A DNA stretch of 64,000 bases. It comes from an uncultured Pelagibacteraceae bacterium (GTDB lineage: Bacteria > Pseudomonadota > Alphaproteobacteria > Pelagibacterales > Pelagibacteraceae). Within the stretch, counting starts at the first letter, position 1, and every line of letters starts with the position of its first letter. The position numbers were made by a program, and so were the translations under genes. The notes below the pieces were generated by a model, which saw only the letters and a list, made by a program, of their open reading frames with translations, was not told the origin of the DNA and ran no database searches. Below, piece by piece: positions 37,510 through 60,722 of the stretch. The stretch covers positions 1 to 64,000 of the forward strand of contig CACEOY010000003.1 of the NCBI GenBank assembly GCA_902561155.1, written 5' to 3'.

Positions 37510-37585
37510 TTTATGTGTTATTAATTGATTTTGTATAATAATTCTTTATTTTAACACAATTACACTAAATATTCTTTATTCAAAT

Positions 37586-41157: not shown

Positions 41158-41165
41158 AATTATGA

Positions 41166-41242: not shown

Positions 41243-41252
41243 ATTGATATAA

Positions 41253-41280: not shown

Positions 41281-41284
41281 TAAT

Positions 41285-42100
41285 TTAGTACTTATGTAAA
41301 GTTGGATACATTCTAAGTGTAAAAGGTAATTTCATTGGATTAACAAACTTATTTATATTGTCAGACAACATTGTATTGCCAAGTCTCGCATAAGACAAAT
41401 AGTTTAATTTTTTAATATAAGTGCTAAACCAAAATGAATTAAATCTTTCCATTAAAAAAGCAGGTATTCGAGTGTTATATCCGTTAAGTACATTTATATC
41501 ACTACAATATTTATAACACTTTTCTAACCAAGGAAATAAAGTGTTGCAATATTCATCAAAAATATCTGCTGTAGTTAAGAAAAATGTAATACTTAAACTA
41601 TTTGAGTTTATAAATTTTAAAAAATCTGTTTTTAATTTCCCATCTAAAAAATCTGCACATTCTATAATAATATTTTTTCCATGGACTTTTTCAAATTGTT
41701 GAAGAACAGTTTCTTTTTCAAATATAATTGGTTGAACTTGTACTGCCTCAGAATTGTTGAAAATATTGTTATTTGATTGTAATAAATTTGAATACAAGCT
41801 AGAAACAGAGAATTTTTGCTTATGTTTGTAGCACTTATTTAACCATAACTTTCTGTAATTACAAGTACCCACCCAAGATTTTTTATTCATCTTTTTTAAT
41901 TCATTTTTCCATATCCAATAAAATCCAGTTGCTTCACCATAATAATGATTTAAAGAATTTAAATTTAATCCTTTTTTTTCATCTAAGTAATTTTTATTAA
42001 AGTTTGATTTTCCTAAACCCAGAATATGAACATAAGAGGGTAACTTGTTCAAAATTAAATATTCGTTGAGCGTAAAACAATAAATCTTTAGATCTGTCAT
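41285..42100 (-). CDS. DUF4422-like glycan-synthesis protein
   Basis: A 271-residue relative of 39468-40289. It shares the order LKIYCFTLNEY, NHYYGEATGFYWIWKN, SWVGTCNYRKLWLN, LFPWLEKCYKYC and TRIPAFLMERFNSFW. These conserved aromatic and charged positions suggest a common fold and perhaps a glycosyltransferase role as proposed for DUF4422. No signal or membrane segment is seen. It lies upstream of tRNA-Met, after a methyltransferase gene on the same strand. Confidence 0.6.
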   Translation of the reverse strand: MTDLKIYCFTLNEYLILNKLPSYVHILGLGKSNFNKNYLDEKKGLNLNSLNHYYGEATGFYWIWKNELKKMNKKSWVGTCNYRKLWLNKCYKHKQKFSVSSLYSNLLQSNNNIFNNSEAVQVQPIIFEKETVLQQFEKVHGKNIIIECADFLDGKLKTDFLKFINSNSLSITFFLTTADIFDEYCNTLFPWLEKCYKYCSDINVLNGYNTRIPAFLMERFNSFWFSTYIKKLNYLSYARLGNTMLSDNINKFVNPMKLPFTLRMYPTLHKY

Positions 42101-42106
42101 ATAAAT

Positions 42107-42919
42107 TTATTCAAAATATTTTTTTACAATTTTATTATTTATCCTTTTTTTTAAAAACTTAGTAAATTTATTCAATCTGATAAAAGGAATTTTATTCAAG
42201 TATTTTTTTAAATTTTTTACAAAAATTTCGTTTCCTTGCCAAGTTAAATCCTCTATTGAATGACTTTTTCCTTTATTATTAATCTTTATATTTTTTTTTG
42301 CTTTAGCTTGATTGATGTTAAAACAAACAATGCTCTCATAAAAATCAATTGAGTAAATATACTTTTTTAAAGAGAAATTAATTTTTAAACCTAAATCAAG
42401 ATCTATATTTGTATTTAAATCGTCAATTACTTTTTTTGAAAAATTTATAAATGAATATTTTTGACTAGAGTTGTACTCATCAACGTAACTTGTGTGTGTA
42501 TCCTCTACCATTAAAACACCGCCGTCATTAATATGTTGAACAGTATTAACAGTAGTTTTTATTTGATCTAGATTTGTATGCCCTCCATCATCCAAAATAG
42601 CATCTACATTTCCATATTTATTAAAAAATAATTTCCAAAATTCATCGTCTGACTGATTTCCTATCTCAACAAATATATCTTTTTCTTTTTCCTCAAACTT
42701 TTTACACTCAGGATTAATATCAATTCCAATAATTTTAGAATCTTTGCCAAAATAATTCTTCCACATTTGTAGCGACCCACCGTTAAAAATGCCAATTTCT
42801 ACAAATATGATTTTTTTATCTTTTAAATTAGAAAAAAACTTTTCATAAACTGGGAAGTATTTCTCCCATTTAACAGAATAATTTTTTAAATTTTCAAATT
42901 CTTTTTTTAAATCTGGCAT
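42107..42919 (-). CDS. Class I SAM-dependent methyltransferase (CmcI/macrocin O-methyltransferase-like)
   Basis: A 270-residue Rossmann methyltransferase. IFVEIGIFNGGSLQMWKNYFG is motif I, IIGIDINPECKKFE the acidic motif II, and DAILDDGGHTNLDQIK with GGVLMVEDTHTSY the later motifs. Related enzymes O-methylate sugars in antibiotics and glycans using a metal. In this island it probably decorates a surface sugar. It is separated by six bases from the DUF4422-like gene downstream. Confidence 0.75.
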   Translation of the reverse strand: MPDLKKEFENLKNYSVKWEKYFPVYEKFFSNLKDKKIIFVEIGIFNGGSLQMWKNYFGKDSKIIGIDINPECKKFEEKEKDIFVEIGNQSDDEFWKLFFNKYGNVDAILDDGGHTNLDQIKTTVNTVQHINDGGVLMVEDTHTSYVDEYNSSQKYSFINFSKKVIDDLNTNIDLDLGLKINFSLKKYIYSIDFYESIVCFNINQAKAKKNIKINNKGKSHSIEDLTWQGNEIFVKNLKKYLNKIPFIRLNKFTKFLKKRINNKIVKKYFE

Positions 42920-42938
42920 AAAATTTAAAATAAATTTT

Positions 42939-44033
42939 TTAAGAGCTTATACACTTTTCAAGCTCATTCAAATCAACAAAAATAGTACCTAGTTGACTTG
43001 AAAATTTCTGATTTATTTGTTCTCCTTTTCCAATAAAATTTGTGTAATCTAAATTTAGTTGATTACCTAAATTTTTATACATGTTTCCAATGTGTGATAA
43101 TTTGATTTCAATTACCTTTGTTTTGGGTTGGCAAAATAATAGATTAGACAAGCCAGCTCCATGCAATCCTATAACCATTTCTGCTTCGCTAAATAAATTA
43201 ATTTGATCTAAAAAAGTCAAAGATGATAACTGAATAATTTGAAATCCTTTAGATGATAAAAAGTTTTTTACTTCATTTTCATTTATAATACTTCTTAAAT
43301 GCTTAACGCTTGATCTAGAGTCATCTCTATCTATAAAAAACTTTTTGGTCTTTTTTTTGTTATTAATATTGGATGCAAAGCTATCTCTGTAAAAATTTAT
43401 AATCCAATTTGGCAAATTTTCATTATCTCTATTTGGGTCATTTAAAATAACACAGGGATGATCTACAGCAATGATTTCATCAGCAAATATATGTCTATTG
43501 TGTCTACTTGAGAGCCTTTTAGATATTGGTATCTGAAAAAAATCTAAACTTTCCCTCTGAAATTTGAGCTTTGTTTCTGGAAAAAGAAAGTAGTCTATAT
43601 CAGTAATATCAAATTTTTTTTGCAGTATTTTAAGGCGTGGTAAAACATCAAAAAGCCAGTGAAAATAGTTTTCGTTACCTCCACCACCTGTTAATAATGA
43701 AAAAACTTTTCCATTAATTTTTTTTTTAAATCTAGGAGTTCCTATTTTTAATACTATATTCTCTTCTATTTTGGACATAACATTGTTTCTAAATTGAAAT
43801 GAGGGTCCTTCAATTAAAAGGTTATTTTTTATAATAGCAGTGTCATGAATTGTATCAGTATATATTCTTGAATTTTTACAAAAATATATTCTATAGTTAA
43901 TATTATCTTTAAAAGATATTCTGGTAACGTCTTTGTAGTCTTTTAATTTTAAAATACCCTTAATTTTACCGTTTAACACAATAAAAATTAAATATATTAA
44001 TTTTTTATATATATTTTGAATTTTTTTTCTCAT
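42939..44033 (-). CDS. Glycosyltransferase family 61-like protein (DUF563)
   Basis: A 364-residue protein. LLTGGGGNENYFHWLFDVLPRL is the central GT61 motif, FFIDRDDSRSSVKHLRSIINE follows, and IGLHGAGLSNLLFCQPKTKVIEI is the C-terminal signature. The family transfers xylose, GlcNAc or other sugars in eukaryotes and acts in bacterial capsule and LPS clusters. A hydrophobic stretch near the N-terminus (KLIYLIFIVLNG) may anchor it to the membrane. Confidence 0.75.
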   Translation of the reverse strand: MRKKIQNIYKKLIYLIFIVLNGKIKGILKLKDYKDVTRISFKDNINYRIYFCKNSRIYTDTIHDTAIIKNNLLIEGPSFQFRNNVMSKIEENIVLKIGTPRFKKKINGKVFSLLTGGGGNENYFHWLFDVLPRLKILQKKFDITDIDYFLFPETKLKFQRESLDFFQIPISKRLSSRHNRHIFADEIIAVDHPCVILNDPNRDNENLPNWIINFYRDSFASNINNKKKTKKFFIDRDDSRSSVKHLRSIINENEVKNFLSSKGFQIIQLSSLTFLDQINLFSEAEMVIGLHGAGLSNLLFCQPKTKVIEIKLSHIGNMYKNLGNQLNLDYTNFIGKGEQINQKFSSQLGTIFVDLNELEKCISS

Positions 44034-44111
44034 TAACTTAAATGTTAAATATAGTAATAATGTTATTTTTATTATAGTTTGGTCGAAATATAAATATTTT
44101 AAATTACATCT

Positions 44112-45095
44112 ATGACTAAAAAAGCTTTAATCACAGGTATCACTGGCCAAGATGGTTCTTATTTAGCTGAGTTTCTATTAAAAAAAAAGTATCAAGTACA
44201 TGGGTTAATTCGAAGGGTCGCTGCTGAAGATAAAACACATAGACTATGGCGGTTAAAAAATATTTTAAATAAAATTACTCTTCATTCTGCTTCTCTAGAA
44301 AGTTATGCAAGCATTGTTAAAATTATACAAAAAATTAAACCAAAAGAGGTTTACCATCTTGGAGCTCAAAGTTATATTGATTACGCTTTTAAAGATGAAT
44401 TTTCTACCATCAATACAAATATAAATGGAACTCATTTTATTCTGTCAGCTATAAGAGATTTTTCACCAAAAACTAAATTTTATTTTGCAGCATCTTCAGA
44501 AATGTTCGGAAAGGTTCAACAAATTCCGCAAACTGAAAAAACACCTTTTTACCCAAGATCAACTTACGGTATTTCAAAAGTTGCAGGTTTTGACTTAACA
44601 AGAAATTATAGAGAAGCTTATAATTTATTTTGCTGTAGTGGAATTTTATTTAATCATGAATCACCAAGAAGAGGATTTGAATTTGTAACAAGAAAAATTA
44701 CACATGCAGTTGCAAGAATAAAATACGGTTTACAAAACGATTTAAAACTTGGAAATATGGATGCGAGAAGAGATTGGGGTCACGCAGAGGATTATGTGCG
44801 AGCAATGTGGTTAATGCTTAATAAAAGATCTCCAGAAGATTTTGTGATAAGTTTTGGAAAACAATATTCTGTTAGAGATTTTGCAAAATTAGCTTTTAAA
44901 TTTGTAGATTTAGATTATAAAAAATTTGTAAAAATTGATAAAAGCCTACAAAGACCTTCGGACGTTCAATATTTATTGGGTAACTGTTCTAAAGCTAGAA
45001 GAATTCTCAAATGGAAGCCTAAATACAATTTTGAGGGTTTAGTAAAAGACATGGTAAAAGCAGATTTAGAATTCGTAGAGAAATATGGTTATTAG
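44112..45095 (+). CDS. gmd: GDP-mannose 4,6-dehydratase
   Basis: Forms GDP-4-keto-6-deoxymannose, precursor of fucose, rhamnose or perosamine. ALITGITGQDGSYLAEFLL, LGAQSYIDYAF, FAASSEMFGKVQQIPQTE, PFYPRSTYGISKVAG, GILFNHESPRRGFEFVTRKI and MDARRDWGHAEDYVRAMW are diagnostic. Length is 327 residues, slightly short. No fcl or per gene is in the window to use its product. GDP-mannose could come via the hexomutase at 20.5 kb. Confidence 0.93.
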   Translation: MTKKALITGITGQDGSYLAEFLLKKKYQVHGLIRRVAAEDKTHRLWRLKNILNKITLHSASLESYASIVKIIQKIKPKEVYHLGAQSYIDYAFKDEFSTINTNINGTHFILSAIRDFSPKTKFYFAASSEMFGKVQQIPQTEKTPFYPRSTYGISKVAGFDLTRNYREAYNLFCCSGILFNHESPRRGFEFVTRKITHAVARIKYGLQNDLKLGNMDARRDWGHAEDYVRAMWLMLNKRSPEDFVISFGKQYSVRDFAKLAFKFVDLDYKKFVKIDKSLQRPSDVQYLLGNCSKARRILKWKPKYNFEGLVKDMVKADLEFVEKYGY

Positions 45096-46318
45096 CCTTT
45101 TTTGATTATTTCAAAATTTGGTAGCGGGAAGATAAATTTTGTCCCTTTTCTTAAAGTATGTTTTTCTCTTTTTAAAATTTCTTTTTTAAAGTGCCACGGT
45201 AAAACTAGATAATAGTCTGGTTTCATCTTTCTTGAATTTTCCTCGGATATAATTTGAATTTTTGATCCTGGTGTAACTAATCCATACTTATTTTTATTTC
45301 TTTCTGCTGCAAAACTAATTTTTTTATTATCTATGTTAAAGTATTGTAACAAAACATTGCCCTTAGTTGATGCACCATAACAATGAATACTTTGATTATT
45401 TTTTCTTATATTTTTAATTTCATTATTTAACCGAGTTTTTAAAAAGTTTATCTTTTGAATAAATTCTTTAAATGTTTTTACTTTATTAAGTTTTAATTTC
45501 GACTCGCTCGTAAGAGTTTTTTCAATGATTCTGTTATTTGATTTAATTTTAGAATTTTTGTGGCAAATATAATACTGCTTGCTGCTTCCATTAATAAAAT
45601 TTTGCTTTATGTCAAATACTCTAAGATCATTTTTTTTAACTAAATTAATAATTACTTTGCTGCTATAATACTCTAAATGTTCATGACAAATAGTGTCGAA
45701 CATTTTGTATTTAATAATAGAAGCTAAATCTGCAAATTCAAGTAAAAAGACACCTTTGGGTAAAAGTAATGTTTTAACGTCTTTTAAAAACTTATTTGGG
45801 TTTAATAAATCGTAAAAAACTGAAAGTGCAGATATTATTTTAAATTTCTTTTTAGTTTTTTTTTTGACTTCGTTAGCAGAAAAAAACCCAGAAATGGAAT
45901 ATCTTATTTTTTTATAATTTTTTTTATATTTATTTAAAACTGGGTCAACACCAAATTTGATAATATTTTTTTTATATGAATTTAATAATGTTCCATCATT
46001 ACTTGCAATATCTAATACTAAATCATTTTTTTTTAATGAAGTTTTTTTTGCTAAGTTCCCGGTAATTTTTTTTACATGGTCGGTCATAGTCTTATTGATC
46101 CCTGTGCGATAACCATAGTCTGGGCCGTACAAATATTTTAAATCGTAATTATGTGCTAATTGAACCAATTCACAGCTTTTACATAAAACCACTGTTACTG
46201 GTTTTTTTTTTATATTGTCCTTTAATGATGAGAATTTACCTGTGAAACATAAGTTGCCTAGTGAAAATAATTTAATTAATTTTTTTGATTTACAATTTCG
46301 ACACTGTTTAATTCGCAT
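45092..46318 (-). CDS. Sugar-nucleotide C-methyltransferase
   Basis: A 408-residue three-domain protein. An N-terminal zinc finger (CRNCKSKKL ... VVLCKSCELVQL) precedes a SAM domain (VLDIASNDGTLLNSYKK) and a C-terminal Methyltransf_14-type domain (HCYGASTKGNVLLQYF, then YYLVLPWHFKKEI). The architecture matches enzymes adding a C-methyl branch to keto-deoxysugars, such as TylC3 or NovU. The conserved EHLEYYS segment carries the His/Glu near the catalytic site. It ends by overlapping gmd tail-to-tail. Confidence 0.83.
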   Translation of the reverse strand: MRIKQCRNCKSKKLIKLFSLGNLCFTGKFSSLKDNIKKKPVTVVLCKSCELVQLAHNYDLKYLYGPDYGYRTGINKTMTDHVKKITGNLAKKTSLKKNDLVLDIASNDGTLLNSYKKNIIKFGVDPVLNKYKKNYKKIRYSISGFFSANEVKKKTKKKFKIISALSVFYDLLNPNKFLKDVKTLLLPKGVFLLEFADLASIIKYKMFDTICHEHLEYYSSKVIINLVKKNDLRVFDIKQNFINGSSKQYYICHKNSKIKSNNRIIEKTLTSESKLKLNKVKTFKEFIQKINFLKTRLNNEIKNIRKNNQSIHCYGASTKGNVLLQYFNIDNKKISFAAERNKNKYGLVTPGSKIQIISEENSRKMKPDYYLVLPWHFKKEILKREKHTLRKGTKFIFPLPNFEIIKKG

Positions 46319-46370
46319 TAAACGGTTATACCAGTGCTAAAATTTTATTTAAACTAAGTTTTTATAACTC

Positions 46371-46571
46371 TTAAAGAGTTAAGATTATTCCAAATACCGT
46401 TACCGCTGATACTGCTGCAGCACCTAATATAATGCTGTTTTTTCTGTCTCTTTTTTTATCTTCGTTCATTTTTGAGACTAAATCATTAACATTAACTCTC
46501 TTTTTATGGCTGCTCGGATTGTCAAGCCAAGAGTAGTGATTATCTTTTTTTTCTTCAGTTTGTGCGCTCAT
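46371..46571 (-). CDS. Small protein with C-terminal membrane segment
   Basis: A 66-residue protein, not recognised. Residues 1-46 are polar and charged (KKDNHYSWLDNPSSHKKR, NEDKKRDRKNS); residues about 47-66 (IILGAAAVSAVTVFGIILTL) form one membrane helix reaching the C-terminus, a tail-anchored layout with a cytosolic head. It sits alone between a C-methyltransferase and ald, with a 124-base gap upstream in which I see no clear element. Confidence 0.6.
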   Translation of the reverse strand: MSAQTEEKKDNHYSWLDNPSSHKKRVNVNDLVSKMNEDKKRDRKNSIILGAAAVSAVTVFGIILTL

Positions 46572-46695
46572 ACTTATAATTATTAAAGCATATATTTTTT
46601 AATATTTTAATATATTTTTAGTTCATACTGGGCTGATTTATAAAAAAATTTCTTTAAGTTTATAGATTTTTGAAAGATTTTAGTCCGGTTTGGGT

Positions 46696-47814
46696 TTAAG
46701 ACGATATTACGTCTTCTGGAGTGAAATACTTTACATTTAAGGCCTCTGCAACTCCTTTGCAGGTTATCTTTCCTTTAAATATATTTAAACCAGCTAGAAA
46801 ATTTTTGTCCGTTAAAAGTGCCTTTTTGTAACCTTGATCAGCTATTTTGATTAATAAAGGTAATGTTGCTTTATTTAATGCCATTGTGGAAGTTCTTGGG
46901 ACTCCACCAGGCATATTAGCAACACAATAATGTACCACATCATCAACAATGTAAGTTGGATTAGCGTGTGTTGTGGGTTTACTTGTTTCTATACACCCTC
47001 CTTGATCGATTGCGACGTCAACAACTACAGAACCTCTTTTCATAGACTTAATCATCTCTTTTGAAACTAATTTTGGTGCCTCAGCTCCAGGATTAAGAAC
47101 GCCGCCAATTAATAAATCACATTCTGAAACTAATTTTTTAAGATTTATTTTACTACTTTCTGCTGCTATTATTTTATCTCCAAATAACTCATGTAATTGA
47201 TTAAGTCTATCTTTTGATTTATCTACAACATAAACTTTACTTCTCATTCCTGTGGCTATTATCGCAGCGTTCTCTCCGACAACGCCTCCACCTAAAATAA
47301 CTACGTTTGCTGGTTCTACTCCAGGTGCCCCTCCTAATAATAATCCTCTTCCTTTTTGATTTTTTTCAAGTGAGTGAGCTCCAGCTTGTATTGACATTCT
47401 TCCGGCAACAGCGCTCATGGGTGCTAGCAAAGGAAGTCGACCGTTGTCATCTGTAACAGTCTCATATGCAATACATATTGATTTTGATTTAATCAGTCCA
47501 TGCGTAAGCTCTTTTGCTGCAGCTAAATGTAAGTAAGTGTAAATAATTTGATTTTCTCTTATCATTTTTACTTCGTTAAGCTGAGGTTCTTTTACTTTAA
47601 CAATTATCTCAGATTTTTTAAATATCTCTTCAGCAGCATCAATTATTTGAGCTCCAGCATTTTTGTAATCTTCATTTGTAAAGCCCGCTTCGAATCCACC
47701 ATTTCTTTGTATTAAAACCTTGTGCCCTTTTTTCGCTAGAACTTTAACACTATCAGGAGTTAAACCAATTCTATGCTCTTGAAGCTTTATTTCTTTAGGA
47801 ACTCCGATGATCAT
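46696..47814 (-). CDS. ald: Alanine dehydrogenase
   Basis: NAD-linked interconversion of alanine and pyruvate plus ammonia. MIIGVPKEIKLQEHRIGLTP, RNGGFEAGFTNEDY, and LLGGAPGVEPANVVILGGGVVGENAA with the NAD site are canonical. The substrate-binding VAIDQGGCIETSKPTTH is intact. Length is 372 residues. It abuts the upstream aminotransferase with no intergenic base, so it probably regenerates pyruvate from the alanine that enzyme makes and releases ammonium. Confidence 0.96.
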   Translation of the reverse strand: MIIGVPKEIKLQEHRIGLTPDSVKVLAKKGHKVLIQRNGGFEAGFTNEDYKNAGAQIIDAAEEIFKKSEIIVKVKEPQLNEVKMIRENQIIYTYLHLAAAKELTHGLIKSKSICIAYETVTDDNGRLPLLAPMSAVAGRMSIQAGAHSLEKNQKGRGLLLGGAPGVEPANVVILGGGVVGENAAIIATGMRSKVYVVDKSKDRLNQLHELFGDKIIAAESSKINLKKLVSECDLLIGGVLNPGAEAPKLVSKEMIKSMKRGSVVVDVAIDQGGCIETSKPTTHANPTYIVDDVVHYCVANMPGGVPRTSTMALNKATLPLLIKIADQGYKKALLTDKNFLAGLNIFKGKITCKGVAEALNVKYFTPEDVISS

Positions 47815-49155
47815 TTATGATTTAGTATAATTTGAAATACCGGTTCTTAATTTATCAATTATCTCGTCGATATGTTTTTTTTCACAAATAAATTGAGGTG
47901 CTATTATTAAATTATCACCTGTGTTTTTAAAATTAACACCTGCATCATAACAATGTTTAAACACTTGGTACCCTGCTTTTCCAGGTTTGTCTTTCATTCT
48001 TATTTCAATTCCTCCCATCATTCCATAACCTCTTATACTTACTATTTCTTTCAAATCTTTTAAAGATTGAAGACCGTCTTGAAGGTAAGGTGACATATCT
48101 TTTGCTCTTTTAAAAATATCTTCTTTGTCAAAAATATCTTGTACAGCTAATGCTGCAGCTACTGCTACTGGAATGCCGGAATAAGTATATCCATGAAATA
48201 ATTCTGGTGTACCCTCGGGGGCGGAAGATGCATCTAATACAGAATCATATATTTCTTCTTTTACCGCTACCACTCCCATTGGCACTACTCCATTTGTTGT
48301 TGCTTTTGCCATTGTCATAATATCTGGTGTAACGTTCCATTCTTGGGCAGCGAAAGCTGATCCTGTTCTACCCCATCCAGTTATTACCTCATCAAAAATT
48401 AACAATATTCCATGTTTGTTACAAATTTCTCTTATTCTTTTTAAGTAGCCTTTTGGAGGAACTAAAGTTCCAGTAGATCCAGCGATAGGTTCCACTATGC
48501 AAGCTGCAATATTTTCTCCACCAAAGTTCATTGCTATTCTTTCTAAATCTTCTGCTAATTCAACTCCTGTTTCAGGTTGACCTTTTACAAATTTATGTTC
48601 TGGTAAATGAGTATGCCTCATATGTTGAACCCCAGGCATTAATACACTTGCAAACGTCTTTACATTATTTATCATACCACCAACAGTAGTGGCCCCAATA
48701 TTCATTCCATGGTATCCTCGCTCTCTGCCAACAAATCTAAATCTTTTTGAATCACCTTTTGCCCTGTGATAAGCGATTGCAATTTTAATGGCTGTTTCTA
48801 CTGCTGTTGAACCACAAATAGTATAAAAAATTCTATTAATACCCTCTGGAGTTTTTTTTGCTATTCTAGTAGCTAGCTCAAAAGATCCACCAAAACCTTG
48901 GTTAAAAGGTTGGCAATAATCTAATTTATCTAGTTGCTTTGAAACTGCTTCTGTTATTTCTTTTCTTCCATGTCCTAAAGGATTGCAAAATAAACCGGAA
49001 CTTGCATCAATCATTTTTTTTCCTTGATGATTTGTTAGATAAACCCCTTTTGCATCTGTAATTAATCTAGGATTTTTTTTAAACGATTTGTTGTCTGAAA
49101 ATGGCATCCAATGTTCATTTAGAGAATTTGGAATGTTTGTTCTTTGAGAGCTCAT
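47815..49155 (-). CDS. Class III omega-amino acid:pyruvate aminotransferase (beta-alanine/taurine type)
   Basis: PLP fold-type I enzyme of 446 residues. EHWMPFSDNKSFKKNPRL and DASSGLFCNPLGHGRKEI match omega-amino acid:pyruvate transaminases. FRFVGRERGYHGMNIGATTVGG, LIFDEVITGWGRTG and the PLP lysine in MAKATTNGVVPMG follow. Substrates of this clade include beta-alanine, taurine and hypotaurine. Pairing with ald and closeness to tauABC favour taurine or hypotaurine, but beta-alanine is as compatible with the sequence. Confidence 0.88.
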   Translation of the reverse strand: MSSQRTNIPNSLNEHWMPFSDNKSFKKNPRLITDAKGVYLTNHQGKKMIDASSGLFCNPLGHGRKEITEAVSKQLDKLDYCQPFNQGFGGSFELATRIAKKTPEGINRIFYTICGSTAVETAIKIAIAYHRAKGDSKRFRFVGRERGYHGMNIGATTVGGMINNVKTFASVLMPGVQHMRHTHLPEHKFVKGQPETGVELAEDLERIAMNFGGENIAACIVEPIAGSTGTLVPPKGYLKRIREICNKHGILLIFDEVITGWGRTGSAFAAQEWNVTPDIMTMAKATTNGVVPMGVVAVKEEIYDSVLDASSAPEGTPELFHGYTYSGIPVAVAAALAVQDIFDKEDIFKRAKDMSPYLQDGLQSLKDLKEIVSIRGYGMMGGIEIRMKDKPGKAGYQVFKHCYDAGVNFKNTGDNLIIAPQFICEKKHIDEIIDKLRTGISNYTKS

Positions 49156-49249
49156 AATAAAATTTTTAGACTATTACTTAACTAAAACAACTAAATTATA
49201 TACAACTAATAGTGGTATATAGTTTTTAATATATATCGTATACATAATA

Positions 49250-49780
49250 ATGCAAATTAAAAAAACTAAGATTCCTGGTTTAAAAATTGTCACAAACAAA
49301 ATTTATAAAGACTCAAGGGGTCATTTTAAAGAGGATTTTTTATCTAAAAATTTTACTAAAAATAGTTTTGTTTTCTCCTGCACTTCAAAATCAAAAAAGA
49401 ACGTTCTGAGAGGATTACACATGCAACTCAAAAATGGACAAGGAAAATTTATATCTGTTGTAAAAGGTGAAATTTTAGATGTAGTGGTCGATGCAAGAAA
49501 AAAATCAAAAACTTTTGGAAAACACTTCAAAATAATTCTGTCAGATAAAAATGGGAAATCAATATTTATTCCCCCTGGTTTTCTACATGGATTTTTAGCT
49601 TTGCAAAAAGAAAATATAGTCCATTATTACAATACAAAATATAGATCTGCCGAACATGAAACTGGAGTAATCTGGAACGATAAGACTTTGAAAATAAAAT
49701 GGCCAACAAAAAACCCAATACTCTCAAAAAAAGATAAAAAAAATTTAAAATTCGAGGAACTTTCAAAAAAATTAAGATGA
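49250..49780 (+). CDS. rfbC: dTDP-4-dehydrorhamnose 3,5-epimerase
   Basis: Cupin-fold epimerase of 176 residues. VLRGLHMQLKNGQGKFISVVKGEILDVVVDAR contains the catalytic His and conserved Lys; SIFIPPGFLHGFLALQ and VHYYNTKYRSAEHETGVIWND complete the family. It would act on the product of rfbB, 11 kb away. It overlaps a C-methyltransferase gene by four bases rather than a normal rfbD, so the end product may be a branched deoxysugar and not rhamnose. Confidence 0.92.
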   Translation: MQIKKTKIPGLKIVTNKIYKDSRGHFKEDFLSKNFTKNSFVFSCTSKSKKNVLRGLHMQLKNGQGKFISVVKGEILDVVVDARKKSKTFGKHFKIILSDKNGKSIFIPPGFLHGFLALQKENIVHYYNTKYRSAEHETGVIWNDKTLKIKWPTKNPILSKKDKKNLKFEELSKKLR

Positions 49781-50976
49781 AATGTAAAATTACTAATGAC
49801 AATTTAAAACCTTTTATGTCATTTGGAAAGATGCCATCTGCCAATGGTTTTTTGGAAGAAAAAGATTTTCAAAATGAATTTTTTTACGAAATGGAAGTTG
49901 GTTTTTCTGAAAAAGTATCTTTATTGCAGCTCAATGAATTTTCAAATCCTGAAGCGGTCCATAATGAGAGGTACCCTTTTTATACAAGCAGTTCGAAGTA
50001 CATGACTGAACACTTTAAAAACTTTGCTAAATGGTTAAATGATAAACATTTATCTTCAGGGTCAAAATTGGTGGAAATTGGGTCAAATGATGGAACCTTT
50101 TTAGAAAATTTTAAAAATAAGAATATAGACGCATTAGGATATGAGCCTTCATCTACAATTGCTAACTTGGCAAATAAAAAAGGAATAAAAACTTTTGATA
50201 AGTTTTTTAATACTTCAAATTTAGATTTGATAAAAAGTTTTCATAACGATGTTGATATAATAAGTTCAGCTAACGTAATAGCTCATATTCCGGATTTAAC
50301 AAATGTTATAAAATGTGTAGACAAATTACTATCTAATAATGGCTTGTTAATTTTTGAAGAACCTTACATGGGATCTATGTTTTCAAAAGTTTCTTATGAC
50401 CAGATTTATGATGAGCACATTTTTATATTTTCTGTAAGTTCAATAAAAAAGGTATTTTCATTGTTTGATTTTGAATTAATTGATGCTTTACCCCAAATTA
50501 CTCACGGAGGATCGATGAGATACGTAATTGGAAGACGAAAAAAACATCAAATTAATGATAATGTTCGTAAGATTATAGATGAGGAACAAAAAAATAAATT
50601 AGATACAGAAGACTCTTGTATTCAATTTAAAAAAAATTGTGAAAATTCAAAGAAAAACACTATAAAAAAAATAGAAGAATTTAAAAGTCAAAATAAAAAG
50701 ATATGTGGTTACGCTGCAACCGCGAAAAGTACAACAGTTTTAAATTATTGTGGTATTAATTATAAAATGATTGATTTTATTTGTGACACAACGAAAGAAA
50801 AAATTGGAAAATTTTCTCCTGGCTCACATATACCGATAGTGCCAGTTTCTGATTTTCATAGATTAAAGCCCGATATAGCTTTTTTGTTTGCGTGGAATCA
50901 TAAAGAGGAAATTTTTTTAAAAGAGAAAGATTTTAAAAAAAATGGAGGCGTCTGGTTTTCACATGTTGCTTTATAA
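49777..50976 (+). CDS. Sugar-nucleotide C-methyltransferase with degenerate zinc finger
   Basis: A 399-residue homologue of the protein at 45092-46318. The SAM domain has LVEIGSNDGTFLENFKNK and ISSANVIAHIPDLTNVIK, the catalytic region YDEHIFIFSVSS, and the C-terminal domain CGYAATAKSTTVLNYCG and FLFAWNHKEEI. The N-terminal zinc cysteines seen in its relative are mostly replaced (MKCKITNDN and GFSEKVSLLQL). It lies between rfbC and a reductase, a typical order for making a C-methyl dTDP-deoxysugar. Confidence 0.83.
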   Translation: MKCKITNDNLKPFMSFGKMPSANGFLEEKDFQNEFFYEMEVGFSEKVSLLQLNEFSNPEAVHNERYPFYTSSSKYMTEHFKNFAKWLNDKHLSSGSKLVEIGSNDGTFLENFKNKNIDALGYEPSSTIANLANKKGIKTFDKFFNTSNLDLIKSFHNDVDIISSANVIAHIPDLTNVIKCVDKLLSNNGLLIFEEPYMGSMFSKVSYDQIYDEHIFIFSVSSIKKVFSLFDFELIDALPQITHGGSMRYVIGRRKKHQINDNVRKIIDEEQKNKLDTEDSCIQFKKNCENSKKNTIKKIEEFKSQNKKICGYAATAKSTTVLNYCGINYKMIDFICDTTKEKIGKFSPGSHIPIVPVSDFHRLKPDIAFLFAWNHKEEIFLKEKDFKKNGGVWFSHVAL

Positions 50977-51697
50977 AAATCGTATTGTAATCACAGGTGG
51001 TTCGGGGAGATTTGCAAAATCCTTAAAAAAAATAAAAACTCGTTATGATGTATATTTTCCATCAAAAACTCAATTAAATATTCAAAAGGAAAAATCTATT
51101 CTTAATTATCTTAAGAAAAAAAAACCTAAATATCTTATTCACTTAGCGGGCTTATCAAGGCCTATGTCTATACACGACAAAGATATAGGTAAAAGTATTA
51201 ATTTAAATATCATAGGAACAGCCAACATTGTTAAAATGTGTGAAAAAATGAAAGTAAAATTGATTTATTTTTCATCAAGCTATGTATATCCAGGAAAAAA
51301 AGGAAATTATAAAGAGGAGGAACCTCTTTTGCCGATTAATAGTTATGCGTGGTCAAAACTAGGTGGAGAATGTTCTGTAAGACTTTATAAAAATTCACTT
51401 ATTGTAAGAGCGTCAATGACTGAAAAGCCCTTTGTTCATAAATCTGCATTTAGTGATTTTTTGACTAACTTTATATTTCACGATGAAATAGCTCCTGTAG
51501 TTTTTAAAATATTAAACCTTAAAGGTATAATTAACTTTGGAGGAAAATCTCAAAGTGTCTTTAAGTTTGTAAAAAAATATAACCCGAAAATAAAGAAAAT
51601 TTCGTACAAAAAGATTTTTGGAAATTCTTATCCTTCAAACACTACAATGAATATGACAAAGTTTAAAAAATTTTTAAAAAAAGATAAAAAAATTTAA
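50942..51697 (+). CDS. RmlD-like NAD(P)-dependent sugar reductase/epimerase
   Basis: A 251-residue SDR. RIVITGGSGRFAKSLKKI is the nucleotide site, YLIHLAGLSRPMSIHDKDIGKSINLNI follows, and IYFSSSYVYPGKKGNYKE with SYAWSKLGGE holds the catalytic Ser, Tyr and Lys. It is short like RfbD and probably reduces the 4-keto sugar after epimerisation and C-methylation. It overlaps the methyltransferase by 35 bases; the internal ATG at 50963 (MLLYKNR) is an alternative start. Confidence 0.75.
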   Translation: MEASGFHMLLYKNRIVITGGSGRFAKSLKKIKTRYDVYFPSKTQLNIQKEKSILNYLKKKKPKYLIHLAGLSRPMSIHDKDIGKSINLNIIGTANIVKMCEKMKVKLIYFSSSYVYPGKKGNYKEEEPLLPINSYAWSKLGGECSVRLYKNSLIVRASMTEKPFVHKSAFSDFLTNFIFHDEIAPVVFKILNLKGIINFGGKSQSVFKFVKKYNPKIKKISYKKIFGNSYPSNTTMNMTKFKKFLKKDKKI

Positions 51698-51749
51698 TTT
51701 CAACCCAGGATTGATTATTTCTTTAAACTTGGCCATTTATTGAACACTC

Positions 51750-52836: not shown

Positions 52837-53634
52837 ATGAGCGACTTAATTTCACAAAACTTAAATATGATTTTTAAAACTCCGAAAGGAGAGACTGTCC
52901 ATGCGCTCAAAGATTTAAATTTCACTATTAAAAAAGGGGAGTTACTAACCGTCCTTGGTCCCTCAGGATGCGGAAAGACAACTTTGTTAAATATTACAGC
53001 AGGATTTATAAGACCAACTTCAGGAAAAATTACTCTTAATAATAAAGAAATCAATGGACCAGGTGTTGATAGAGGGATGGTTTTCCAACAAGGTGCTTTA
53101 TTTGAATGGTTAACAGTTGCAGAGAACGTAAATTTTGGTTTGAGAATGAAGGAAGAAGACGCTGTTCAAACACAAAAGAAAGTTGACGAATGGTTGGATA
53201 TAGTTGGTTTAAAAGGTTTTGGTAATACTCCTACTTACCAATTATCAGGGGGTATGCAGCAAAGAGTAGCTTTAGCTAGATGTTTAATAAATGATCCTGA
53301 TTTAATTTTAATGGATGAACCTCTAGGAGCTTTAGATGCATTAACGAGGGAAAAAATGCAGTCGTTAGTTCTTAAAATTTGGAAAGAGACAGGAAAAACA
53401 ATTATTTTAATAACCCACTCAGTTGAAGAGGCGCTATTGCTTGGAGAAAAAGTTTACGTTATGGCTCCAAGACCTGGAAGAATTCACAAAGAATACAAGT
53501 TACCATTTGCTTCAATGGGCCTTACAGGAGACTTGAGAGAAATTAAAAATAATAAAGAATTCGTTTTAAAAAGAGAGGAAATTCTCTCTATGATTTGGGA
53601 TATGGAAGAAGAAATAATGGGTAAAGATAATTAA
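52837..53634 (+). CDS. tauB: Taurine-type ABC transporter ATPase
   Basis: ABC ATPase of 265 residues. Walker A is LGPSGCGKTTLLN, the Q-loop is MVFQQGALFEWLTV, the signature LSGGMQQRVALARCL, Walker B LILMDEPLGALDALTRE, and the switch His is in IILITHSVEEALLL. The TauB/SsuB/NitD-type C-terminus includes VYVMAPRPGRIHKEY. It overlaps tauC by one base. Confidence 0.92.
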   Translation: MSDLISQNLNMIFKTPKGETVHALKDLNFTIKKGELLTVLGPSGCGKTTLLNITAGFIRPTSGKITLNNKEINGPGVDRGMVFQQGALFEWLTVAENVNFGLRMKEEDAVQTQKKVDEWLDIVGLKGFGNTPTYQLSGGMQQRVALARCLINDPDLILMDEPLGALDALTREKMQSLVLKIWKETGKTIILITHSVEEALLLGEKVYVMAPRPGRIHKEYKLPFASMGLTGDLREIKNNKEFVLKREEILSMIWDMEEEIMGKDN

Positions 53635-55544
53635 TGATCACAGCTTTTTTAACTTTTGTATTTTTCTTTGCTATCGTTGGATGTGTTTTATACGGTAGAA
53701 AATTAATAAAAACAGAAAAAGTAGACGCTGTTTTTGGAAATCCAGAAAGAGCGCAAGGTGGAATCCATTGGGTAATTGTTGGAAGTAGTTTCTTATTATT
53801 AGTTTGGCTTTACTACTCTTGGGATATTGCAAAATCTTTCTTTCCAAGATCGGCTAATGAACTTTGTCAAGTTGGAAAGGTAAATGAATCCCTTCTTTCT
53901 CTCAAGTATCTTTTTCCAATCGAAGAGCGTCAACTTAAAAGTACTTCTGTAATTGAAACTGAAACAGAAAATTTAAATAAAATAATTGTTGAAATTGAAA
54001 ATTCAGAAAAAGTAAAAAGTCAAGATAGAAACAAATTATTAAATTTTGTTTCGCAAACTAAAAATACAATTCCTTTACTGACTAATGAAAAACTTTTAAA
54101 TAATAAGACAAAAGAACAAATTAAAGTAATTAATAATAAAATTATAGATTTAACTAAAAATTTTAGAAAAAAAGATTACCCAAATGAGAGTGCTGAACAA
54201 GAAATAGAAAGGATTGAAGCAGCTAAAGAGGAAGGCAGTTGGAAAGCTTCAAGTACATCGATTGAAAATACTATTGAAATACCTTCGATACCAAAAACAA
54301 AACGAGGTTTAAAATTTCAAGCAGCTGCTGAGGAGCTTAATTTGATTAGTGACGAGTTCTTTGAGCTTCGTAATCATAATAGTCAATATACTTCGGATTT
54401 GGAAAAACTAAAAAAAGAGATTAAAGATTTTAGAACTAATCTTGGCTCTTCAGAGGAGATTGCTTCCTCTTTTGCAAAAGATATCTTAAAAATTGCGCGA
54501 AGAATTGAATACGCAAGTATATTTCCACCAAATACTTTGAAAGACATGCAGCTTTCAATAATTAATTTTGATAAAGCACAAAAAAAAGAGCAAGGTACTT
54601 TAAGATGGGTTGATATACTTTTATTTCCGTCTGGCACTATTATTTCTAGTGGACCAAGTTGTTCAGAGCAAGGATCAGGTAGATGGTTACCCAAACCTTC
54701 AGATACAATTAATAAATTTACATTAATGCTTAACCCTAATGTTGGTTACAAACAAATTCCATTAATTTGGTATGAAATGATGGATGTGAGTAAGATTATA
54801 GGTTTCTTAATTCCTGATTGGTTTGCAGATGTTATACCTGGTGAATACCCAGTTCATAACGAACAGGGAGAAGTTAAAGCCAATTTTAAAAGTAGAGTGT
54901 TAAGTTTTGTTACTGGAGACTTCAATTTATTTAAAATTCCAATACCAACTGGTCATATATGGGACTCATTTTTAAGAGTGTTTCTTGGTCTTGTGGCAGG
55001 AATTATTGTGGGAGTGCCATTAGGATTATTTATGGGTTTAAATAGATTTGCAAAAGGTTTTTTTGATCCTTTAATTGAACTCTATAGACCCGTGCCGCCA
55101 CTAGCTTGGGCGCCTTTAGTCATTTCAGTTTTAGGTATAGATAATCTTGGAAAAGTATTTTTGTTATTTATGGTATCGCTATCAATAATGATAATTTCAG
55201 CAAGGGCTGGTGCATCAGGAACTCAACTATCTAAGATTCATGCCGCACATTCTCTTGGCGCATCAAAATGGCAAATATTAAGACATGTTATTTTTCCAAA
55301 TTCTTTACCAGAAATTCTTACTGGTATAAGAGTAGCAACAGGAATGTGTTGGGGAACTTTAGTAGCTGCAGAATTTTTAGCCGGGACTACCGGAGTTGGA
55401 TTTGTAGAAAATGTTGCTAAAAAGTATTTCCAATATGAAGTAATATGGATAACTATATTTATTATGGGAATGCTAGGTTTGTTATTTGATATTACAATTA
55501 GAAAAATTATTGATAAAACAATTCCTTGGAGAGGAAAAGGTTAG
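53634..55544 (+). CDS. tauC: Taurine-type ABC transporter permease with large N-terminal extension
   Basis: The C-terminal 200 residues are a normal binding-protein-dependent permease. WDSFLRVFLGLVAGIIVGVPLGLFMG starts it, and AHSLGASKWQILRHVIFPNSLPEILTGIR is the EAA loop that docks TauB. The protein is 636 residues, over twice the usual roughly 260. Residues 1-65 hold two membrane helices (FLTFVFFFAIVGCVLYG and HWVIVGSSFLLLVWLYY). About residues 80-330 are polar and Lys/Glu-rich with coiled-coil character, probably periplasmic, then a segment (FADVIPGEYPVHNEQG) leads into the permease. The extension's role is unknown. Confidence 0.87.
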   Translation: MITAFLTFVFFFAIVGCVLYGRKLIKTEKVDAVFGNPERAQGGIHWVIVGSSFLLLVWLYYSWDIAKSFFPRSANELCQVGKVNESLLSLKYLFPIEERQLKSTSVIETETENLNKIIVEIENSEKVKSQDRNKLLNFVSQTKNTIPLLTNEKLLNNKTKEQIKVINNKIIDLTKNFRKKDYPNESAEQEIERIEAAKEEGSWKASSTSIENTIEIPSIPKTKRGLKFQAAAEELNLISDEFFELRNHNSQYTSDLEKLKKEIKDFRTNLGSSEEIASSFAKDILKIARRIEYASIFPPNTLKDMQLSIINFDKAQKKEQGTLRWVDILLFPSGTIISSGPSCSEQGSGRWLPKPSDTINKFTLMLNPNVGYKQIPLIWYEMMDVSKIIGFLIPDWFADVIPGEYPVHNEQGEVKANFKSRVLSFVTGDFNLFKIPIPTGHIWDSFLRVFLGLVAGIIVGVPLGLFMGLNRFAKGFFDPLIELYRPVPPLAWAPLVISVLGIDNLGKVFLLFMVSLSIMIISARAGASGTQLSKIHAAHSLGASKWQILRHVIFPNSLPEILTGIRVATGMCWGTLVAAEFLAGTTGVGFVENVAKKYFQYEVIWITIFIMGMLGLLFDITIRKIIDKTIPWRGKG

Positions 55545-55550: not shown

Positions 55551-55988
55551 ATGAATAGACTTTTGATCATAGTATTTATTTTTCTTCTTCCGGCATCTCT
55601 CTTCGCTGACGAAAAAGTAAAAGAAAAAAAAGTAGCGAAATATATTATGGAAAACATTCAAAAAGATTATTTAGATTGTTATAGTTTCTATAAGGTTGCA
55701 GCAGAGAGCTTTAAAAAGGCAGGGAAAGATCAAGAATTAATAAAAAATTTAGAAAATAGTGCAGATGTTTCATTGAAGTATAACTATGATTTAGGGGAAA
55801 TTATGGGATTTAATCCTGAGGTTATGGCTGAGATGACCAAGACAAAAATAGATACATTTGTAAAAATGGCAAACAAAGATTTTTCATCTTTAGCTAAAAA
55901 ATATGGTCTCATGTGTAAGAGTTTGGTCGAAAATCCAGAGCAAAGAACAAATTACTGGGAAAAAAAAGGTTCTAAAATAATTAAGTGA
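55551..55988 (+). CDS. Secreted helical protein of unknown function
   Basis: A 145-residue protein with a clear signal peptide (MNRLLIIVFIFLLPASLFA). The mature part is predicted helical and has two Cys, in YLDCYSFYKVAAE and GLMCKSLVENP, which may form a disulfide in the periplasm. It lies six bases after tauC and overlaps the dehydrogenase gene by four, so it belongs to the tauBC operon. Family not recognised. Its layout resembles the secreted protein at 60242-60622. Confidence 0.7.
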   Translation: MNRLLIIVFIFLLPASLFADEKVKEKKVAKYIMENIQKDYLDCYSFYKVAAESFKKAGKDQELIKNLENSADVSLKYNYDLGEIMGFNPEVMAEMTKTKIDTFVKMANKDFSSLAKKYGLMCKSLVENPEQRTNYWEKKGSKIIK

Positions 55989-58597: not shown

Positions 58598-58921
58598 TTA
58601 TTTTCCAGGCTCTTTGTAAGTAGTGGCCATTTTTTTTGCAGTTTCTGCTATTCCATTAAGATCAACATCTTCCAGAATAGTAAAATCTGAAACCGCACCA
58701 CTTGACACTGCTACCATTGCAGCTGCAGCGGCTTGTTCGAAAGTACCTTCGATCTCTGCCATAAAGTCATATTTTCCTCTTAACCCGGCATAACGAGTTA
58801 CCTTTGCTCCACCGGCAGCAGCAAGCGCAGATGTTGCAGCTTTTCTGTCTGTAGATGGATTACTGACAAAGCCACCAAGTCCTTTAGCGGTATAAACTCC
58901 TAGAGTTATAAATTTTGCCAT
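58598..58921 (-). CDS. GYD-domain protein
   Basis: A 107-residue soluble protein of the GYD family, a dimeric ferredoxin-like alpha/beta barrel. FITLGVYTAKGLGGFVSNPSTDRK and VTRYAGLRGKYDFMAEIEG hold the family pattern, the name-giving turn appearing as GKYD. Function of the family is unknown. The start has a near-perfect Shine-Dalgarno (GGGAGG). Last gene of a six-gene minus-strand operon of small proteins. Confidence 0.8.
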   Translation of the reverse strand: MAKFITLGVYTAKGLGGFVSNPSTDRKAATSALAAAGGAKVTRYAGLRGKYDFMAEIEGTFEQAAAAAMVAVSSGAVSDFTILEDVDLNGIAETAKKMATTYKEPGK

Positions 58922-58936
58922 GTGTTCCTCCCTTTG

Positions 58937-59230
58937 TTATTTTTCTACTACCACTGTTCCTGAATGTGGATCTGTAACTCCTAATTCAGATGACAGTTCT
59001 TCTAAAGTGTGCCTCAATGAGTCCAAAAATTCAATCATTTTTGGTCTTGCTTTAGCAATATCATCTTCAGAATTCCATTCGCCAATCATAAAAAATTCGT
59101 TTGGTTTTGTTTCAACGTATTTTGCTGAAATTTGACCCTCGAACTTAGGCATATCGTTAATTTTTTTTAAATATTCCTCTCTGTTAGATGATTTCACTTT
59201 GCATCTAACAATATTCATAAACTTTGACAT
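58937..59230 (-). CDS. Antibiotic-biosynthesis-monooxygenase-like (ABM) small protein
   Basis: A 97-residue protein with the dimeric alpha/beta-barrel pattern. FMNIVRCKVKSSNREEYLKKINDMPKF, then SAKYVETKPNEFFMIGEWNSEDDIAKARPKM, fits ABM-type proteins, which include small cofactor-free oxygenases and heme-binding relatives. The catalytic role is unproved. It has a strong AAGGAGATAT leader. The gene is 15 bases before the GYD gene and 8 after the membrane-protein gene. Confidence 0.72.
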   Translation of the reverse strand: MSKFMNIVRCKVKSSNREEYLKKINDMPKFEGQISAKYVETKPNEFFMIGEWNSEDDIAKARPKMIEFLDSLRHTLEELSSELGVTDPHSGTVVVEK

Positions 59231-59238
59231 ATATCTCC

Positions 59239-59655
59239 TTAAACGTAAATTTTATCTGCCAAACCATAACAAAGAATAGCGCTGATAATTACAAGAACAA
59301 TTGGAGCATATATTCCATCGTTTCTAGTTTTTTTAGTCAGACCTGTTTTATCAATTTTCAATGTATAAAAATTTGTAAATAAAATTGAAACATTCATTAT
59401 AAAAACTAAGTTGAAGAACGCCCAAGTGGCCTCTACACCGCCTGATCTAATAAAAGCAATATAAATTGCCATCAAAACAGTAGCGATCATAAATGAACCT
59501 GCAAATCTCGTGATTAAAGTAGCAGTTTTATCAACCCCTCTACCCTTAAGAAATTTTTTAGTATCAAATACTAACTGGTAAGCGTAGCTACCAACAATAA
59601 TAAAATGTGCTAAGTAAATTATTAAATAAAATGCATTTCCAAATTTATCGATCAT
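59239..59655 (-). CDS. Four-helix membrane protein of unknown function
   Basis: About 138 residues. Four hydrophobic helices are visible: FYLIIYLAHFIIVGSYAYQLV, TRFAGSFMIATVLMAIYIAFI, FFNLVFIMNVSILFTNFYTL and IVLVIISAILCYGLA. One His lies within the first helix. The track start (59703) overlaps the upstream gene by 41 bases; the ATG at 59655 with AGGA upstream is preferred. Family not recognised. It may be the membrane partner of the co-encoded small soluble proteins. Confidence 0.65.
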   Translation of the reverse strand: MIDKFGNAFYLIIYLAHFIIVGSYAYQLVFDTKKFLKGRGVDKTATLITRFAGSFMIATVLMAIYIAFIRSGGVEATWAFFNLVFIMNVSILFTNFYTLKIDKTGLTKKTRNDGIYAPIVLVIISAILCYGLADKIYV

Positions 59656-59662
59656 AAATATC

Positions 59663-59950
59663 CTATGCGTTATAGTCCATGACCTGATCTGTGCACTCAA
59701 CAAATTTATGAGGAGTGAAAAAATCGTTCATTTGACCTAGTTGATTAATAATTGCTTGCTCATCTTTTCCCTTCCACCAACAAAACATTTCCATTGTATC
59801 GCCCGGTGTATTCCAAGTCATTTGGCAAGCTGCGTTATCACTTTTCATACTTTTAACAATATCTTCCATTTTCATTGAAGCTACTGTTTCTGTAAATTTA
59901 GCTTTCATTTCAGCAGATTTGAAAGTGTGTGTTACCATATAATTTTTCAT
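59663..59950 (-). CDS. Small soluble protein, likely ferredoxin-like fold
   Basis: A 95-residue acidic protein, not recognised by family. The order of segments (YMVTHTFKSAEMKAKFTETV, then TWNTPGDTMEMFCWWKGKDEQAI, then PHKFVECTDQ) suggests a beta-alpha-beta unit like DUF1330 and ABM neighbours. The FCWWKGKDEQA stretch is unusual for its paired Trp and Cys. It is translated with DUF1330 upstream (one base gap). Confidence 0.62.
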   Translation of the reverse strand: MKNYMVTHTFKSAEMKAKFTETVASMKMEDIVKSMKSDNAACQMTWNTPGDTMEMFCWWKGKDEQAIINQLGQMNDFFTPHKFVECTDQVMDYNA

Positions 59951-59951
59951 A

Positions 59952-60239
59952 TTATACTCCTTTAATTATTATCATATTACCAATTGAGTTTTTCAAACGA
60001 ATTGGTTTTACGGGTTTATATTCTTCAGAGTCATACCACTCTAAAGCCTTTTCGTAATTTGGAAACTTAATTACAACTGTTCTAGCGTTTTCCCATTCAC
60101 CCTCCATAACTTTATATGCTCCAGCTCTAACTATGTACTCGCCTCCAAATTTTTTTACAGTAGGAACAACTTTTCCTACATATTCTTTATAAGCTTCAGG
60201 ATTTTTTACGTCTATATTAGCTATAACGTATCCACTCAT
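59952..60239 (-). CDS. DUF1330-family protein
   Basis: A 95-residue protein with the DUF1330 pattern. GYVIANIDVKNPEAYKEYVGKVVPTVKKFGGEYIVRAG, then WENARTVVIKFPNYEKALEWYDSEEYKP, matches this dimeric alpha/beta-barrel family of unknown function. It lies two bases after the secreted-protein gene and one base before the next small protein, supporting coupled synthesis. Confidence 0.87.
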   Translation of the reverse strand: MSGYVIANIDVKNPEAYKEYVGKVVPTVKKFGGEYIVRAGAYKVMEGEWENARTVVIKFPNYEKALEWYDSEEYKPVKPIRLKNSIGNMIIIKGV

Positions 60240-60241
60240 GT

Positions 60242-60622
60242 TTAACCTGCATAAATCGTTCTAGATAATTTTTCGATTTTTTCTTCTGAACCTTTAATTT
60301 GCTTATATATGAATTTATTACACTCACCATTTTTAGCTTTATCAAAAGGCTTTCCATAAACTTTGTCTACATAGGCATTCATACCTTTATTCATCTCATT
60401 TTCTTTAACACCTTCAGATGTAAGGTATTCTCTTATAACTTTTACTGAAGCCAAAGCTAATTCCATATTTTTAACTTCAATAGTATCAGCAGGTAAAACA
60501 GCTGTTGCACTGTAGTGACCTAAACACTCTATTGTTTTTTCTTTTTGAGCTTTAGTTATATGTCCAGCTGCAAAAAGCGTACTAAAACAAAAAAAACTTA
60601 TTAATATAAAATATATTCTCAT
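60242..60622 (-). CDS. Secreted small two-cysteine protein
   Basis: A 126-residue protein with a signal peptide (MRIYFILISFFCFSTLFAAG). The mature protein is helical, with Cys in KTIECLGHYSATA and in NGECNKFIYKQ, which may be disulfide-linked in the periplasm. Family not recognised. It is the first gene of the six-gene operon, with a perfect AAGGAGG ribosome-binding site and a palindrome-rich upstream region. Its outline resembles the product of 55551-55988. Confidence 0.68.
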   Translation of the reverse strand: MRIYFILISFFCFSTLFAAGHITKAQKEKTIECLGHYSATAVLPADTIEVKNMELALASVKVIREYLTSEGVKENEMNKGMNAYVDKVYGKPFDKAKNGECNKFIYKQIKGSEEKIEKLSRTIYAG

Positions 60623-60684
60623 TAAACCTCCTTAAAAAAAGTCATCTTAATGAACTTATTTTATTTTAATTATGTTAAAAATTT

Positions 60685-60710
60685 ATTGCAGGTATGCAAT
60701 TTGTCTACAA
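60685..60710. promoter_or_regulatory. Two abutting palindromes, candidate operator
   Basis: ATTGCA-GGTA-TGCAAT (60685-60700) followed directly by TTGTCTACAA (60701-60710). The second is a perfect TTGT-ACAA dyad, like GntR/FCD-family operators. They lie 63-88 bases before the start of the six-gene operon and just after the zinc dehydrogenase stop, in the likely promoter region of the operon. Function is inferred. Confidence 0.45.
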
Positions 60711-60722
60711 CTACAAGACGAA

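Follow-up and report, generated by a model that had tools for sequence, protein, structure and literature searches.

A modular cassette of small alpha/beta-barrel proteins headed by a conserved promoter-like block in Pelagibacteraceae

Introduction

Comparison of gene order and sequence across about 120 Pelagibacteraceae genomes shows that six small genes in a 64,000-nucleotide stretch of DNA from an uncultured member of this family (contig CACEOY010000003.1, hereafter the window) form a self-contained modular operon, in which a promoter-like block and the gene order are fixed while individual barrel proteins are gained, lost, duplicated or replaced among close relatives. Few cells on Earth are more abundant than those of SAR11, which have discarded nearly everything dispensable and whose genomes are among the smallest of free-living organisms. 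Despite this streamlining, many SAR11 lineages retain the cassette under strong purifying selection and with a private, putative promoter block. Identification of the ligand would show which chemical problem or resource shapes bacteria of the surface ocean, and would at the same time assign functions to the DUF1330, GYD, DUF3764 and SCO4226-like families. The promoter block was previously unnoticed, and the modular character of the cassette goes beyond the observation made in an earlier, sequence-only reading of the window.

Organization and coding potential of the operon

The six open reading frames occupy 60622 to 58598 of the minus strand and are separated by gaps of 2, 1, 7, 8 and 15 bases, which confirms the tight gene group proposed by the sequence-only reading. 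In order of transcription they encode a SecA-type secreted protein with a signal peptide and two Cys in its mature part (126 aa; 60242..60622), a DUF1330 barrel protein (95 aa; 59952..60239), an SCO4226-like protein of predicted ferredoxin-like fold (95 aa; 59663..59950), a predicted four-helix membrane protein (138 aa; 59239..59655), an ABM-like barrel protein (97 aa; 58937..59230) and a GYD-domain barrel protein (107 aa; 58598..58921). For the membrane protein the most likely start is 59655 and not 59703, since its homologues align to the shorter form. The source genome is 0.97 Mb and 83% complete; among its near relatives, those with named records are single-cell genomes of uncultured Pelagibacteraceae.

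Median pairwise dN/dS values of 0.027-0.10 across ten cassette families indicate strong purifying selection in every family tested (for the window types: secreted protein, 0.075; DUF1330, 0.049; SCO4226-like, 0.027; membrane protein, 0.054; ABM-like, 0.051; GYD, 0.027), and therefore functional genes rather than chance reading frames. A scan of the region with Rfam found no RNA family.

Shine-Dalgarno matches of at least 5 bases, a cut-off picked after seeing the data, precede 4/6 cassette genes versus 3/61 larger open reading frames in the window (Fisher p = 6e-4); the first gene has a 9-base match, TAAGGAGGT, at 60626..60634 on the minus strand. Strong ribosome-binding sites that are rare elsewhere in the window had been noted before, and the high expression that they were taken to imply finds no support in codon usage, which is unremarkable for the cassette and places the GYD gene below every window gene compared. 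Codon bias was itself discarded as a marker of high expression, being uninformative in this AT-rich genome.

Protein families and predicted folds

Four of the six operon proteins are supported as alpha/beta-barrels of the ferredoxin-like class, by sequence or by predicted fold. The DUF1330 protein scores far above the curated Pfam cut-off (PF07045, E 6.9e-33, 113.3 bits versus 23) and has clear sequence relatives of deposited structure, 2fiu (E 6e-17) and 3lo3, and the GYD protein also passes its cut-off (PF08734, E 2e-8, 34.5 bits versus 31.4). Membership in these two families, as claimed from the sequence alone, thus stands. For the ABM family, the window protein scores below the cut-off (PF03992, E 0.003, 18.0 bits versus 23.1) and is therefore filed only as ABM-like (the same profile gives 20.6 bits for a homologue in a distant alphaproteobacterial family, L190, and 23.6 for the sister-family ABM protein). 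No convincing sequence relatives in the Protein Data Bank (PDB) were found for the GYD, ABM and SCO4226-like proteins, or for the Bx5, Bx11, B104 and B123 proteins of other cassettes.

The fourth protein also scores below its Pfam cut-off (PF14026, E 0.005, 17.3 bits versus 28.5). Its single-chain AlphaFold model, built on a shallow alignment (mean pLDDT 73), has a beta-alpha-beta-beta-alpha-beta order, and the best matches in a PDB fold search are dimeric ferredoxin-like proteins, none of them below E 0.001. These predictions agree with the earlier suggestion of a further barrel-like protein and give moderate confidence in a ferredoxin-like fold. The conservation of His8, Cys42, Cys57 and His81 in this protein, together with the exported Cys protein and the analogy to the nickel-binding SCO4226, could suggest a metal-handling or metal-stress set. 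Such a role has a slim chance of being correct, given the score below the PF14026 cut-off, the low-affinity, surface-exposed and mostly unconserved nickel sites of SCO4226 itself (PMC4186839), and the lack of any linked metal transporter among the genes seen.

Neither the secreted nor the membrane protein matches a Pfam family. AlphaFold predicts four long helices for the latter, as had been proposed (shallow alignment; moderate-confidence single chain), and a PDB fold search with this model gave no significant match. His17 of the membrane protein is invariant across the cassette alignment; heme binding, considered after a weak HemJ match, was rejected on the finding that His17 is not retained in distant homologues. 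In the secreted protein, Cys33 is invariant in the alignment. A second small secreted protein is encoded elsewhere in the window (55551-55988), after TauC; it aligns loosely to the cassette protein and shares its first Cys.

A conserved promoter-like block at the cassette head

A candidate promoter/operator block precedes the first gene at 60666..60711 on the minus strand, and reads GTTGTAGACA-N3-TGCATACCTG...TTTTAACATAGTTAA in the window, with its GTTGTAGACA element at 60702-60711. The upstream block GTTGTAGACA-N3-TGCATACCTG-YAAT-N-AAATTTTAACATAGTTAA is common to two chromosomal settings, in which the cassette follows either an enoyl-CoA-hydratase-like gene or TRAP-HpsN-like genes, though the sequence further upstream diverges between them. 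A -35-like TTGCAT (60694-60699, minus strand), which in the window lies inside the palindrome TTGCA-TACC-TGCAA, and a -10-like TAACAT (60672-60677, minus strand) at a 16-base spacing fit a sigma-70-type promoter, and suggest both promoter activity and control by a regulator.

The core motif of this block has one occurrence in the window genome even when up to three mismatches are allowed, and was never found in shuffled window sequence. It is present exactly once in each of 35/101 relatives, always at the cassette head, and a reversed-pattern control produced zero matches in the same 101 genomes. The membrane gene follows 434-1343 bases downstream on the same strand in 32 of these 35 genomes, and in the other three the motif heads reduced cassettes (Sec-GYD in one, Sec-DUF1330b-ABM-GYD in another, and Sec-DUF1330b-ABM up to a contig end in the last). 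Among 80 named loci, 53 contain the exact motif, and in every one of these the next open reading frame of at least 90 aa begins 51-72 bases downstream; it encodes a secreted-type protein in 50 loci and protein B104 in 3. Judged by this core motif, which is found once per genome and always heads the cassette, the cassette seems to form a regulon of its own. The promoter-like block thus travels with the genes, and its single occurrence per genome provides a direct handle on the regulator and the inducing condition.

The upstream region of cassettes in a third, cysK-type setting is not the same. Some of these loci (within L176-L186) have an inverted repeat, ATGTAAC-N6-GTTACAT, which lies upstream of the secreted gene and after GCATACC or GCATATC, and is possibly a different operator.

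Conservation and variable membership

Conservation of the gene set was followed across the family by BLAST against one representative per gene family. Most of the genomes surveyed are incomplete single-cell assemblies, and gene absences are therefore soft. The membrane gene is present in 62/101 relatives, including members of the sister family at ~30% identity, and the SCO4226-like gene in 30/101. Of 41 genus genomes that possess the membrane gene, 37 carried the cassette including the secreted protein, 3 had the membrane gene without other cassette members, and 1 had only the DUF1330 and membrane genes. The order of genes was also compared in 81 loci, which comprise the window and the 80 named Pelagibacteraceae loci; the latter were picked by their SCO4226-like gene, which biases co-occurrence counts and makes the membrane-gene sample the fairer one. 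All 81 loci keep the order of secreted protein, DUF1330, variable slot, SCO4226-like protein and membrane protein. The order held in these loci and the 37/41 genus genomes bear out the proposal of one conserved unit, and the scattering of unrelated genes among neighbouring genomes that would speak against it is not seen within the family.

Around this order, membership fluctuates. Extra barrel families and SnoaL-like proteins are gained or lost, as is a second DUF1330 or GYD gene. For example, the slot before the SCO4226-like gene may be empty or may hold Bx5, Bx11 (DUF3764/DUF1330-like), DUF1330b, a third GYD protein, or two further proteins of 90 and 123 aa. The membrane gene is followed in some clades by ABM and one or two GYD genes, and in other clades by B104, SnoaL, DUF2798-like and small multidrug-resistance-like genes, the labels of the latter two being assigned by eye. 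The secreted gene occurs as three mutually replacing types, SecA being exchangeable with SecB or SecC, and two types stand together in one locus. Strict mutual exclusion between the SCO4226-like gene and Bx11 or DUF1330b, seen in the membrane-gene sample, was dropped as a rule after it proved to be broken in two loci (L140, L147). No relatives of the SCO4226-like or GYD proteins were found in viral contigs. In three loci (L067, L068 and L069) the membrane gene stands alone, preceded in the first two by hemH-like, hemJ-like and rho-like genes.

The presence of several barrels of the same fold class in one operon, and the ability of dimeric barrels to reach higher oligomers, such as hexameric ArqI (PMC12274486), could be taken to mean that the barrels co-assemble into mixed oligomers, as one machine or scaffold anchored by the membrane protein. 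An obligate complex would not allow such variation in membership, with the SCO4226-like gene in 21/41 sampled genus genomes and minimal cassettes of two to four genes, so we regard this arrangement as quite improbable. As a tentative proposal, which we hold at roughly one chance in three, the module would consist of one dedicated promoter and ordered, exchangeable slots, and would draw on a pool of roughly twelve families of small proteins, for the most part alpha/beta-barrels, to provide a lineage-specific repertoire of small-molecule binders or enzymes.

Chromosomal settings and the sulfonate question

The gene preceding the cassette in the 81 loci is enoyl-CoA-hydratase-like in 35, cysE-cysK in 21 and of the TRAP-HpsN-like-ZnADH type found in the window in 20; in the first and third of these settings an opposite-strand methyltransferase gene is usually next. 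Genes of sulfonate type (aminotransferase, HpsN-like, PTA, TauABC) recur near cassettes, often within a few kb. In the window, the cassette sits between TauABC, sulfolactate-dehydrogenase-like and PTA genes on one side and TRAP-HpsN-like genes on the other, and xsc is on the same contig (C3:71018-72745), 7 kb past the window end. The flanks of the 81 loci contain an aminotransferase labelled Tpa in 33 and an HpsN-like gene in 23. From this neighbourhood the cassette could be seen as an accessory of organosulfonate (taurine or dihydroxypropanesulfonate) use, whose barrels remove a reactive intermediate (sulfoacetaldehyde, for instance) that the neighbouring genes produce.

The suggestion that flanking sulfonate genes supply the substrate is weakened by the cassette's own promoter block and by the many copies in other settings (35 + 21 loci after enoyl-CoA hydratase or cysE-cysK, versus 20 beside HpsN-like genes), as well as by the related clusters of the sister family and of distant families, which have no sulfonate genes next to them. 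Moreover, the HpsN assignment comes from context, the NCBIfam label being HisD-like, and the Tpa label was rejected since NCBIfam prefers the omega-aminotransferase AptA, so that taurine use is inferred from context. The cassette can persist without sulfonate-type genes beside it, and an organosulfonate role is unlikely. In the parts consulted of a study of cultured Pelagibacter under sulfur limitation, the cassette genes are not named.

Two other features of this part of the window deserve mention. The TauC-like permease (53634-55544) has an N-terminal extension of ~440 residues, and its TauC match covers residues 441-635 only. The region at 36000-51700, which adjoins the sulfonate genes, contains glycosyltransferase-like, methyltransferase-like and nucleotide-sugar genes, and is likely a surface-polysaccharide variable region.

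Distant relatives and possible function

Related clusters outside the family combine the same kinds of barrels. In the sister family, SCO4226-like clusters (GYD-ABM-SnoaL-cupin-SCO4226-like in L079; GYD-(ABM-like)-SnoaL-SCO4226-like-(Bx11-like) in L074) are separate from the membrane gene. In a distant alphaproteobacterial family, one genome (L190) contains DUF3303-GYD-ABM-DUF3764, with an ABM protein 44% identical to that of the window, two more small genes behind (one of them DUF1330) and a divergent HxlR-type regulator gene. In another genome of this family (L191), GYD-cupin-SCO4226-like adjoins an HxlR regulator gene, and a third lineage (L189) has DUF6854-cupin-SnoaL-like-cupin-SCO4226-like. 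Both HxlR-type regulators have an N-terminal Cys, and in Bacillus the HxlR family includes sensors that respond to quinones and diamide through Cys residues. Among 386 genomes of the class, the SCO4226-like gene is present in 6 and the membrane gene in 11, which marks a specialised set; in distant genomes the membrane-gene homologue lies outside barrel clusters, and a class-wide search for co-located GYD and DUF3764 genes gave few DUF3764 matches.

Genes of redox or carbonyl chemistry occur near some relatives. A Flavodoxin_2 gene (azoreductase/quinone-reductase like) is two genes from a membrane-protein homologue in L076 and is also nearby in a cysK-type locus (L179); another cysK-type locus (L177) has one glyoxalase-family gene nearby, L165 a carboxymuconolactone decarboxylase gene and L186 a DsbA-like gene. 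In three sister-family genomes (L076:2033-3435, L077:7729-9133 and L075:6588-8786) the membrane-protein homologue is near a conserved membrane-type protein of 91-102 aa and a Flavodoxin_2-type oxidoreductase.

Taken together, the protein families, the HxlR regulators, the Flavodoxin_2, glyoxalase and carboxymuconolactone decarboxylase genes near relatives, and the precedent of ArqI, an ABM protein produced with a glyoxalase from a glyoxal-specific promoter (PMC12274486), lead to the explanation that we prefer, while giving it somewhat less than an even chance: that small, probably cofactor-free barrels either bind reactive metabolites of carbonyl or quinone-like type or convert them. Each barrel would be a small enzyme or binding protein with a pocket for one class of reactive metabolite (candidates include alpha-oxoaldehydes, quinones and other electrophiles), exchange of barrels would tune the range of compounds handled, and the function would be linked to the envelope through the membrane and exported proteins. 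The window operon itself contains no quinone reductase or glyoxalase gene, such genes being found only near relatives in other settings, and in streamlined genomes many unrelated genes lie close together. Nor was an HxlR regulator gene, as expected of an HxlR-controlled electrophile-response operon, found in the window genome (assembly 83% complete).

ABM, SnoaL, cupin and DUF1330 families are typical side enzymes of pathways, and variants of the cassette contain ABM-like, SnoaL-like, cupin and DsbA-like genes, which could point to a pathway that tailors or degrades a single aromatic or polyketide-like compound. We consider this improbable, since the variants share no oxygenase, reductase, synthase or ring-cleavage gene and their members are dispensable one at a time.

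Comparison with known systems

In the literature collection searched, nothing joins SAR11 with DUF1330 or Pelagibacter with the GYD domain, and matches for SAR11 with ABM were incidental. YgiN and MdaB of E. coli form a quinone redox pair, in which YgiN is an ABM-type barrel that acts on quinol. By comparison, the window operon lacks an MdaB-like gene, and Flavodoxin_2 genes are only near homologues elsewhere (L076, L179). The DUF1330 structures 2fiu and 3lo3, of which the window protein is a clear sequence relative, were deposited as uncharacterised proteins, and we know of no operon of this kind for either.

The arqI-gloA2 operon of Pseudomonas aeruginosa (PMC12274486) resembles the cassette in having a small ABM-type barrel and a dedicated promoter. 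It differs in consisting of two genes that include a glyoxalase, which is not among the six genes of the window operon, whereas the SAR11 cassette combines one membrane protein and one exported protein with several barrel families. SCO4226 of Streptomyces coelicolor (PMC4186839) is a ferredoxin-like dimeric barrel of similar length to the window protein, but the latter falls below the Pfam cut-off and nickel binding is a feature of SCO4226. Finally, SAR11 hypervariable regions such as HVR3 (PMC5069961) also vary in content between close relatives and contain many small uncharacterised genes; in contrast to these regions, the cassette keeps its order, its promoter-like block and its families, and its variation is limited to slots.
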